A stretch of 48,175 nucleotides of DNA from Coleofasciculaceae cyanobacterium RL_1_1 (GTDB lineage: Bacteria; Cyanobacteriota; Cyanobacteriia; Cyanobacteriales; Geitlerinemataceae): NCBI GenBank assembly GCA_012033105.1, contig JAAUPN010000004.1:1-48175 (forward strand), given 5' to 3'. The notes beneath the pieces were generated by a model. The model was not told where the DNA came from and ran no database searches. It worked only from the letters and a program-made list of their open reading frames with translations. The first letter of the stretch is position 1. Each line of letters begins with the position of its first letter. The position numbers were made by a program, and so were the translations under genes. Shown piece after piece: positions 8,696-16,366 of the stretch.

Positions 8696-10004
8696 TTATT
8701 GTTTAACCATTCCTTCGTAACGTTGAGAGATCACGTAGGTTTGAATTTGTTTAGCTGTATCGATCGCAACACCCACCAAAATTAGGAGAGAGGTTGCCCC
8801 CAAGCCCTGAAATGTCGTGACCTGGGTTGCACTCTCAACAGCCGTTGGCACGGTGGCAACAATGCCGAGAAAAATGGCACCCAGAAAGGTCAGACGGTTC
8901 ATCACCTTTTCGATGTAGTCACTGGTTGCACGCCCTGGGCGGATTCCAGGGATGCTAGAGCCCATCTTTTTCCAAGTTTTGCGACAAATCCACAGGATTC
9001 AGGATCAAAGACGCATAGAAATAACTAAAAAATATGATGAGCGAAAGATAGAACGAGACATAGAGCCAAGGAGCCGGACCACTCGGACGGAGATAATCAG
9101 CCACCTGAATCAAGAATGCATTGCCGGTTGATTGGGCTAAGATACCTGGCAAAATCAGGAAACTCGAAGCGAAAATAATCGGCATGACTCCGCCTTGATT
9201 GAGACGCAGCGGTAAGTAGCTCGTCCGCTCACGATAGAGGCGGCGACCCACCTGTCGGCGAGCAGAAACGATGGGGATACGGCGTGCGCCTTCTTGAACG
9301 AAGACGATACCGACGATCGTTACCAGGAAGACCAGGAGCAGCAGGATGACTCGGCCAATGATGCCTTGATCCTGTTGAGCAAGCTGAATCGTCCCGCCAA
9401 GAGATTTGGGTAAAACAGCAACAATATTGACAAAAATCAATAGAGATGCGCCATTACCAATACCGCGTTCGGTGATCAGTTCAGAGACCCACATCACGAA
9501 CATCGAACCCGCAACTAGAGCGATGACTGTTTGCACAATAAAAGCTGTAGATCCCGGATTTAACGCATAACCACTCGTCCAAATGGCAATGCCAATACTT
9601 TGTAGAATGGCGACGCCGAGGGCGATGTAGCGGGTGATTTGCGAGATTTTACGCCGACCTGCTTCGCCTTCATTTTTTTGCAGGTCTTCTAAGCTGGGGA
9701 TCGCTGCGGTCAAAAGCTGAATTGCGATCGAGGCATTAATGAAGGGTAAAATCCCGAGGGCAAAAATTCCAAGGGATTGCAAGCCCCCACCGGAAAACAC
9801 GTCAAGCAACCCAAGGAACGGACTGTTTTGTAAATCCGCTGCGAATTGCGTCCGGTTAATTCCCGGAATCGGCAGGTAAATCCCAAAGCGCACAAGGATG
9901 AGTAAGCCGATCGTGATGAGCAACCGGCCACGTAGACCGGCAGCTTGCGCCATCTGGAGAAATGTCTCCTGAGCGCTGGGTGTTTTCTCTCGACTGACCA
10001 CCAT
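8696..10004 (-). CDS. secY: SecY translocon channel (broken by one frameshift)
   Basis: SecY is the channel of the Sec translocon; in cyanobacteria it serves both plasma and thylakoid membranes. The first part (from ATG 10004) carries the N-terminal membrane segments, and the second part (8696-8965) carries the last two. The frame breaks at a run of five A on the coding strand (8967-8971): the first part ends in a TAG at 8955, while one base fewer would read through NLEKMGSSIPGIRPGRAT, the conserved cytoplasmic loop C5. Corrected length is 435 residues, normal for SecY. The gene is essential, so a sequence error is most likely. It lies 6 bp before adk and 362 bp after rplO. Confidence 0.9.
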
Positions 10005-10029
10005 GGTAAGAACGACCTCGTACGGGCTG

Positions 10030-10255
10030 ATTTGACATGCTTCCCGGACTTAAAGTCCGAGGATTCTAAAGCTAGGCGAACAGGCTAGGCTGCTGCTCTA
10101 CTTTCTGGCTTAACGCTTCAACGGGCATTGCTAGCGAGCTAGTCTGATGCGCCCTCCACGTTCGTTTTGATTCTCCGAGTATCCCCCGGCGACTTCGTAT
10201 ATCCTAACCAAGCAGAGGCAAGATGCGGACTAAAAGTCCGGGGCTTGAGACCCAC
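10030..10255 (-). mobile_element. Candidate tnpB-less IS200/IS605-type element
   Basis: This block fills most of an unusually long gap between rplO and secY. Both ends carry hairpins with the same arms: CGGACTT/AAGTCCG at 10045-10059 and CGGACT/AGTCCG at 10226-10240. Read on the minus strand the block ends GAATCCTCGGACTTTAAG then a GTCAA near 10033, which resembles from memory the right end of IS200/IS605 (IS1341-type) elements. The middle (GTTGAAGCGTTAAGCCAGAA) resembles the region just after tnpB, where the omega RNA ends. No transposase or tnpB reading frame is present. Boundaries are approximate. Confidence 0.55.
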
Positions 10256-10366
10256 CCCAGAATGGTCAATGGACGCAGGGGAAGACGGTAGAGATTAGCA
10301 ACGTCGATAAAATCACGGCTAACTTAACGCCTATCAGTAAATGAAGTGTAAAGCCTAAGGGTCTGA

Positions 10367-10810
10367 CTAGGCTACTTCGCAAGTACCACCAGCGGCTTCG
10401 ATCTTTTGGCGGGCACTCGTTGTGAAGGCAGCAGCTTTAACCGTAAGGCTGATGCTCAGTTCGCCATCACCCAAAATTTTGAGCGGGCCGTCATTGGTGG
10501 TGACAATCCCAGCGCTCATGAGAGATTCGAGGGTGACGTCGCTGCCAGCACTGAGGCTTCCCAGCTTGGCAACGTTAACCACGGTGAAGTTTTTCGGATT
10601 GATTACCGTGAAATGTTTAAGTTTCGGCACACGGCGGTAGAGCGGCATTTGTCCCCCTTCAAATCCGGGGCGAGTGCCACTACCAGAGCGGGATTTTTGA
10701 CCACGCATGCCTTTGCCGCAACTTGCACCCTGACCAGCAGAGATACCACGACCTAAACGACGTTTCCGTCGGGTTGAGCCGCTTTTGGGGGTTATATCAT
10801 CGAGTCTCAT
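10367..10810 (-). CDS. rplO: 50S ribosomal protein L15 (uL15)
   Basis: uL15 joins late in 50S assembly and links several 23S domains. The 147-residue product has the Gly/Arg-rich N-terminal part ([37 protein letters not shown]) typical of the family and a globular C-terminal half. ATG start. It follows rpsE by 66 bp. Downstream, the link to secY is stretched to 362 bp by the candidate mobile element. Confidence 0.96.
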
Positions 10811-10876: not shown

Positions 10877-11410
10877 TTAGGCGTAGAGCTGCTCGAGCGA
10901 GATGTCACGTTCTTTGGCAACGCTGCTGAGAGTGCGCAGGCTGCGGAGTGCTTCAACGGTTGCACGAGCGTTATTAAGTGGGCTACCAGAACCGAGCTGC
11001 TTGGCGAGAATATTTTTCACACCAGAGAGTTCCAGAACGGTACGAACTGCACCACCAGCGATAACACCAGTACCCGGTGCCGCAGGACGCATCATAACTT
11101 TGGCACCACCGGCGCGACCATTGGTCTGGTGCGGAATGGAATTGGCCTTAGTCAAGGGGACGGTCACAAGGTGCTTTTTGGCATCGGCGACGCCTTTCTT
11201 GACAGCTCCAATGACATCGCTGGCTTTACCGACACCAACGCCGACTTGACCACGTTCGTTACCAATGACGACGATCGCCCGGAAGCTGAGTTTTTTACCA
11301 CCCTTGACGACCTTGGTGACTCGGCGAATCTGGACGACGCGCTCTTGCCATTCGGATTCTTTCTCGCGATTGCGATTGCTTTTTTTACGGCGTTCTCGTT
11401 GTTCTGCCAC
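10877..11410 (-). CDS. rpsE: 30S ribosomal protein S5 (uS5)
   Basis: uS5 helps form the mRNA entry site and affects decoding accuracy. The 177-residue product starts at GTG 11410 ([18 protein letters not shown]), with GAGG 13 bases upstream, and contains the S5 double-stranded RNA-binding core [20 protein letters not shown]. The raw frame runs on upstream without a stop into the rplR sequence, but only because of an rplR frameshift; it is not a real L18-S5 fusion. Confidence 0.95.
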
Positions 11411-11435
11411 GATCTTATATATTCCTCGTAGGGGA

Positions 11436-11797
11436 CTAGAAGTTGAGGCCAGCTTCGCGAGCGGCGTCAGCGAGGGCTTTAACGCGACCGTGGTAGAGAT
11501 TGCCACCGCGATCAAAATTACGCTATCGATACCTTTCGCTTTGAGGCGTTCGGCGACGAGTTTACCCACAGCCGTTGATGCGTCACCCGTTGCACTGGCT
11601 AAGCCTTGAGACTTAACGTCGGCATCAAGAGTTGAAGCCGAGGCAACAGTACGATCGGCGGTATCGTCGATCGCCTGAACGTAGATATGCATATTCGAGC
11701 GAAAGACAGCGAGTCTGGGACGCTCGGCGGTGCCGGACAGCTTGCGACGAATGCGACGGTGTCGGCGCTGAGTGGATTGTTTGCGATTGAGCTTCAT
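11436..11797 (-). CDS. rplR: 50S ribosomal protein L18 (uL18, broken by one frameshift)
   Basis: uL18 binds 5S rRNA together with L5. From ATG 11797 the frame matches L18 through about residue 93 (KGIDSV), then leaves frame at a run of four T on the coding strand (11514-11517). One extra T restores [16 protein letters not shown] and a stop at 11436, giving 120 residues, the normal L18 length. The observed span is 362 bp, one base short of a whole number of codons. Because L18 is essential, a missing base in the assembly is the likely cause. It lies 9 bp after rplF. Confidence 0.9.
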
Positions 11798-16012: not shown

Positions 16013-16366
16013 CTAATCTTCCGGTGCGACGGCAACGGTGATGTGGCACGTCGGTTTACGGATCATGTACGCGCGGCCTTGGGCACGGGGTCGATACCGC
16101 TTGAGGACGGGGCCTTGGTCTGCGAAGGCTTCCGAAACGATCAACGTTGCGGGGTCGAGACCGAGGTTATTCTCAGCGTTGGCGACAGCGGAACGCAGTA
16201 CTTTGAGTACGGGTTCGCAGGCGCGGTAGGGCATGAATTCGAGAACAATCAGGGCTTCACGGTAGGAACGACCGCGAATTTGGTCGAGAACGCGGCGTAC
16301 TTTTCGCGGGGACATCCGGATGTAACGCGCGATCGCCTTAGCTTGCTCTTTAGTGTCAACAGCCAT
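16013..16366 (-). CDS. rplV: 50S ribosomal protein L22 (uL22)
   Basis: uL22 reaches into the peptide exit tunnel with a long beta hairpin, the site of some macrolide-resistance changes. The 117-residue product contains [20 protein letters not shown] and the hairpin region [23 protein letters not shown] start; it is 31 bp after rpsS and 28 bp before rpsC. Confidence 0.97.

Follow-up and report, generated by a model that had tools for sequence, protein, structure and literature searches.

A short IS200/IS605-like element with a TnpB omega-RNA scaffold in the rplO-secY spacer of a cyanobacterial ribosomal operon

For Y1 transposases, short subterminal hairpins together with terminal guide and cleavage bases suffice, as is established for IS608. 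Among the haloarchaeal elements known as palindrome-associated transposable elements (PATEs), some are core deletions of IS605 elements and one is strongly transcribed at one end (PMC3119063, PMC10544981). TnpB, for its part, processes its own mRNA into omega RNA (PMC10278001). In the literature that we searched, PATEs and TnpB omega RNAs are treated separately, although an earlier account of guide-bearing PATEs may exist. The question at stake is whether non-autonomous IS200/IS605 derivatives are deletion products, or keepers of guide RNAs that exploit TnpB in trans. Elements of the PATE kind are already known (PMC3119063); what is added here is a complete, covarying omega-RNA scaffold together with matching empty alleles in sister species. 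The locus offers a natural test set, with a defined element family, likely TnpB and TnpA partners in the same genome, and sister empty sites that match the guide exactly or nearly.

The element, its limits and its relatives

The window analysed is the whole 48,175-nt stretch of contig JAAUPN010000004.1 from Coleofasciculaceae cyanobacterium RL_1_1 (own genome, G000), which we compared with two genomes of the same genus, the sister species G001 and G002. As the initial annotation had said, the spacer between the rplO and secY genes measures 362 bp (10005-10366) and contains two hairpins with CGGACT/AGTCCG arms about 180 bp apart; they lie at 10045-10065 and 10226-10246, with starts separated by 181 bp. 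The features discussed below, in the order in which the operon strand reads them, are as follows.

10367..10810, minus strand: rplO (ribosomal protein L15), upstream operon gene (NCBIfam TIGR01071)
10265..10269, minus strand: left flank TTGAC, target and expected TAM, outside the element; both G001 and G002 have it in their empty sites
10032..10264, minus strand: non-autonomous IS200/IS605 element (PATE), 233 bp, 5'-CATTCTGGGG...GCATGTCAA-3', from empty sites and copies
10219..10264, minus strand: left end with subterminal hairpin GCCCCGGACTTTTAGTCCGC, common to the elements on contigs C144 (90%) and C152 (92%)
10195..10218, minus strand: 24-nt spacer that separates the left end from the scaffold, the most variable part in the copy comparison
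10032..10194, minus strand: TnpB omega-RNA scaffold, 163 nt, comprising stem 1 with a pseudoknot loop, stems 2-3, a lineage-specific insert, the right-end hairpin and 3' AUGUCAA, from covariance model R1 (below)
10180..10183, minus strand: GAUA of the stem-1 loop, which forms the pseudoknot with UGUC (10037-10034), four pairs as judged from the sequence
10032..10066, minus strand: right end with GAAT guide, hairpin and TCAA cleavage site, in all copies, with GR and CR as in IS608
10016..10031, minus strand: would-be 16-nt guide ATCAGCCCGTACGAGG, host sequence, from the empty-allele match
8955..10004, minus strand: secY, downstream gene (NCBIfam TIGR00967)

Two irregularities in neighbouring genes are probably draft errors. 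Near 8970-8975 (minus strand) secY has one extra base relative to both G001 and G002 (TTGGAAAAA, where G001 has TGAAAAA); its frame ends early and the remaining C-terminal part is the open reading frame 8696-8965. Near 11515-11525 (minus strand) rplR is missing one base of a T run that is present in G001, and its frame is fused to rpsE (open reading frame 10877-11797).

On the operon strand the locus reads CCATTGAC-CATTCTGGGG...GGGAAGCATGTCAA-ATCAGCCCGTACGAGG, the 3' end of the element consisting of a hairpin followed by GGGAAGCATGTCAA, with its last base at 10032 and ATCAGCCCGTACGAGG next. The spacer is uninterrupted in both G001 and G002 (CATTGACATCAGC[T/C]CGTACGAGGTC), and around the junction the empty allele reads ...TTGAC|ATCAGC[C/T]CGTACGAGG..., so these two genomes fix the limits at 10264 and 10032, close to the 10030-10255 first proposed. 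The insertion is exact, lying between TTGAC and ATCAGCC without a target duplication, and places the element precisely 3' of TTGAC on the sense strand of the operon, between two genes that are both essential. The same genome holds five others, each about 235 bp long (90-95% identity, E 1e-88 to 1e-107), where the initial annotation had suggested searching for copies, giving a family of at least six; G001 has one copy, at 92% identity. All copies share the right end ATGTCAA, and the left flanks (TTGAC, TTGAC, CTGAC, GTGAC, CTGAC and ATTAC) nearly all end in TGAC, which together with TTCAC at the full-size element on C144 fits T[GTC]AC. A second precise empty site is found in G001 for the copy on C117 (CTTGAC|AGCCAGGG), and the flanks of the copy on C210 match G001 and G002 as a single piece spanning the approximate junction.

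One might ask whether the inserted hairpins have been adapted by the host as a leader or attenuator that regulates secY within the ribosomal operon, given that the element stands 27 bp before the secY start codon, in the sense orientation and flanked by operon genes of the same direction. But it is missing from the same site in G001 and G002, the same element occurs at unrelated loci, and no promoter- or terminator-like site was found, and we consider such a role very improbable.

The copies have likely partners in the same genome, as the initial annotation had proposed to look for. A full-size element on C144 shares both ends with the window element and encodes, in divergent arrangement, a 137-aa Y1 TnpA and a 373-aa TnpB, with Y1_Tnp (E 5.5e-34), transpos_IS200, OrfB_IS605 and TNB domains. 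In PDB the TnpA matches IS608-type TnpA (E 7e-20) and the TnpB aligns with ISDra2 TnpB along almost all of its length (E 7e-60); by inspection of the sequence, the RuvC motifs GIDLG, LEDL and HDRDQNAA and the zinc-finger cysteines are present. Contigs C152 (left end and TnpB residues 1-284) and C320 (TnpB residues 282-373 and right end) look like a second full-size copy that has been divided over two contigs. We did not find the exact TnpB that seeded the element through its 3' end (stem 1 AGTCGCCGGGGGATACTCGGAGACT); the scaffolds of C144 and C320 share only 87-88% identity with that of the element, over the 3' part.

At 233 bp the window element itself is too short for a transposase gene and has no reading frame for TnpA or TnpB, and every tnpB match lies on another contig, so we speak of an omega-RNA scaffold in a PATE rather than of a tnpB element. 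Its subterminal palindromes are at 10226-10247 and 10043-10059, its ends CATTCTGGGG and GCATGTCAA do not form an inverted-repeat pair, and the GAAT that precedes the right-end hairpin and the terminal TCAA correspond to GR and CR of IS608 (PMC5934647). No similar DNA was found among the PLSDB plasmids. Together, the copies, the precise empty sites and the ends common to a tnpA-tnpB relative bear out the initial description of a tnpB-less IS200/IS605-like element. The hairpin followed by GTCAA had been read as an IS1341-type right end; that motif is there, but the full-size relative carries a tnpA of its own, and the type is therefore IS605/IS608-like. We think it probable that the segment is a PATE derived by internal deletion from an IS605/IS608-like element, retaining the left end and the omega-RNA and right-end region while losing tnpA and tnpB; that it is an element of this kind and is mobilised in trans, taken jointly, we regard as close to certain.

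The omega-RNA scaffold

A search of GTDB genomes for TnpB found 28 related loci among other cyanobacteria, of which those in Phormidesmis and Leptolyngbya are the nearest, and the 3' regions of 22 of these tnpB loci, none from the own genome, were aligned (A1). The common structure begins with stem 1 and continues with stems 2-3 and a right-end stem; to these comes a pseudoknot in which the stem-1 loop pairs with the 3' end, placed by hand on the model of the ISDra2 structure (PMC10097598). Across this structure 93.6% of cells are paired and 20 of 35 pairs show two-sided changes; none of 500 shuffles did as well, and slid versions came nowhere near. The pseudoknot columns are 92.7% paired among the relatives, with GGCAU/AUGUC changing to GGAAU/AUUUC in four sequences.

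A covariance model built from A1 without the pseudoknot (R1, 121 positions) matches the window from 10194 to 10032 over model positions 1-121 (73.1 bits, E 9e-15) and finds all sibling copies at 66-87 bits. The match being full length, the element keeps the whole scaffold from stem 1 onward, and the resemblance to the 3' part of an omega RNA noted initially is real and extends further than was supposed. The last model position coincides with the boundary at 10032 given by the empty sites, which makes the 3' end of the scaffold the right end of the element and leaves the guide outside. In the window copy four of the five pseudoknot pairs can form, and two private changes break pairs, one in stem 1 and one in the right-end stem. 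Mismatches that the model alignment shows at columns 215-216, in the right-end stem, were judged to be a register artefact of the model, as the hairpin CGGACTTTAAGTCCG pairs in a different register.

Single-sequence folding gave no signal on either strand (71/100 and 61/100 shuffles folded equally well) and Rfam held no matching family, so the evidence for the scaffold is that of copies and relatives rather than of folding. The folding result is what one might expect of a chance structure, or of a simple REP-like palindrome unrelated to TnpB. But the full-length match to a model trained on an independent set, the ends common to a tnpA-tnpB element and the precise empty site all speak against this, and with the empty site and the covariance match in hand we consider it refuted, its residual probability being negligible. 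The initial annotation had said that its reading would be undermined by an absence of related ends and of omega-RNA matches in other cyanobacteria; full tnpB elements with the same ends exist in the same genome, and the comparison with an omega-RNA covariance model that it proposed, with a model from other cyanobacteria, gave the match described here.

Having found a scaffold, the next question is whether it does anything. It is possible, though we hold it a little less than evenly probable, that the element is an inert PATE, moved by TnpA through its two hairpin ends, in which the scaffold is a passenger left by deletion of tnpB and no guide RNA acts. PATEs that arose from IS605 elements by core deletion are known, with a guide role never demonstrated (PMC3119063), the right-end hairpin overlaps the scaffold, and the window copy has its two broken pairs. 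Retention of the entire 163-nt scaffold from stem 1 in every full copy argues the other way, as does the low variability of its core: over seven copies, with shared ancestry ignored, substitutions number 14 in 609 sites for the core and 18 in 168 for the spacer, a 4.7-fold difference (Fisher p 1e-5). The two ends, however, have 18 substitutions in 567 sites (entered as 18/581 in the test against the core, p 0.47), and judged by these sequences the scaffold appears about as conserved as the transposase-binding ends and not clearly more so. Selection for transposition, or a recent common origin, could therefore explain part of its constancy.

A possible guide RNA acting in trans

The alternative to an inert passenger is that the element may borrow the TnpB of its full-size relatives to defend its place. 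The TnpA of the full-size elements very probably moves the element in trans as single-stranded DNA. Read-through of the ribosomal operon would supply an RNA that TnpB could trim and bind, and the host bases adjoining the element (AUCAGCCCGUACGAGG...) would then serve as the guide. The expected targets of such a complex would be only those chromosomes without the insertion (TTGAC|ATCAGCCC...), such as sister copies left by excision in a polyploid cyanobacterium, and with cleavage limited to these, repair would restore the element. The would-be guide matches the empty allele of G002 at 16/16 positions and that of G001 at 15/16, with TTGAC preceding it in both, and cleavage would therefore help the element to be retained or to home. 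No second target with a TNAC flank and fewer than three mismatches was found in the own genome; two other guide matches there have three mismatches each, and the one on C273 lies in ordinary sequence that lacks a right-end hairpin. For the family as a whole, we see a working trans-acting guide RNA as evenly poised between true and false; for the window copy the probability is lower, owing to its two private broken pairs.

If scaffolds are served in trans, one might look at how omega RNAs and TnpB are numbered across genomes. There are 35 omega-RNA matches against 10 TNB domains in the own genome and 24 against 11 in G001, while G002, which is without the element, has no omega-RNA match and one weak TNB match. 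The excess is not general in the wider family, as in G004 the 60 omega-RNA matches are outnumbered by 117 TNB domains. At eleven further omega-RNA loci of the own genome, no adjacent TnpB was found but for one 31-residue remnant, though contig breaks may hide some. G003 has 23 omega-RNA matches and 5 TNB domains, with many of the matches at contig starts (about 98 nt each); this may reflect another tnpB-less family, or tnpB genes lost to contig breaks. Directly downstream of the C117 copy (L002 1750-1870) lies a weaker second omega-RNA match of 31.8 bits, about 100 bp that are missing from G001, upstream of a gene reading like ribulose-phosphate epimerase; it has the look of an independent small insertion, from another TnpB family, next to that copy.

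Three omega-RNA-like loci are common to the own genome and G001.

G000:C236:7484-7642, minus strand, and G001:C224:1555-1713, plus strand: orthologous omega-RNA-only insertion without tnpB, beside a small membrane-protein gene
G000:C108:1619-1774, plus strand, and G001:C130:11507-11666, plus strand: second common omega-RNA-only locus, would-be guide GGCACTGCCGTCCTCG identical in both
G000:C284:11412-11532, plus strand, and G001:C310:2519-2639, plus strand: degenerate omega-RNA-like sequence without an identity peak

At the first, the two species are about 99% identical over the element and some 480 bp around it but differ by 10-30% at greater distance, possibly a tract left by homing or gene conversion. 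In 300-bp windows identity peaks at 99.7% there and at 97.7% at the second locus, where the contig median is 83%; over 235 windows the median is about 86%, and elsewhere 95% or more is reached only near window position 16350, in sequence of the ribosomal operon. These two are both of the common omega-RNA-only loci with an intact right end, and each sits at the centre of its tract. Beside the same two sites G002 is 82-83% identical, with one 70-bp piece at 90%, and its match is interrupted at the RNA. The degenerate third locus lies upstream of a gene reading like aldehyde-deformylating oxygenase. As a lead from two cases, gene conversion, whether ordinary or stimulated by TnpB, fits the two-sided tracts better than slow evolution. 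It is conceivable, though rather improbable, that the tnpB-less omega-RNA elements of this genus parasitise TnpB in trans and spread by homing, with recombination copying element and flanks between chromosomes and between species; TnpB loaded with the element RNA would in that case cut empty alleles.

Comparison with known systems

The closest described relatives in form are the haloarchaeal PATEs (Haloquadratum, PMC3119063; Halorubrum, PMC10544981), which are likewise short and non-coding, with near-terminal palindromes, no terminal inverted repeats and no target duplication. The present element differs from them in being cyanobacterial, in its complete TnpB omega-RNA scaffold as judged by covariance, and in its guide-matching empty sites in sister species. 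With the multi-copy MITEs of Anabaena sp. 90 (PMC3542288) it shares a short, non-coding sequence and a mainly intergenic position, but those were classed as type II elements, which bear terminal inverted repeats and have no IS related to them, whereas here both the parent type and the RNA can be named.

The ends connect the element to IS608/IS605, through the GAAT guide and TCAA cleavage site of IS608 (PMC5934647), an insertion site just 3' of a short motif whose last bases are AC, and the C144 relative that carries tnpA and tnpB; unlike IS608 it has neither gene, and its left target is TTGAC (mostly TGAC across the family) rather than the TTAC of IS608/IS605. The scaffold in turn resembles the ISDra2 omega RNA (PMC10097598) in the pseudoknot that its 3' end makes with the stem-1 loop, in stems 2-4 and in ending at the right end of the element, and the two systems are alike in a 16-nt guide from flanking DNA and a similar TAM, that of ISDra2 being TTGAT. 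It differs from that RNA in a lineage-specific insert of about 40 nt before the last hairpin and in standing here without a linked tnpB.
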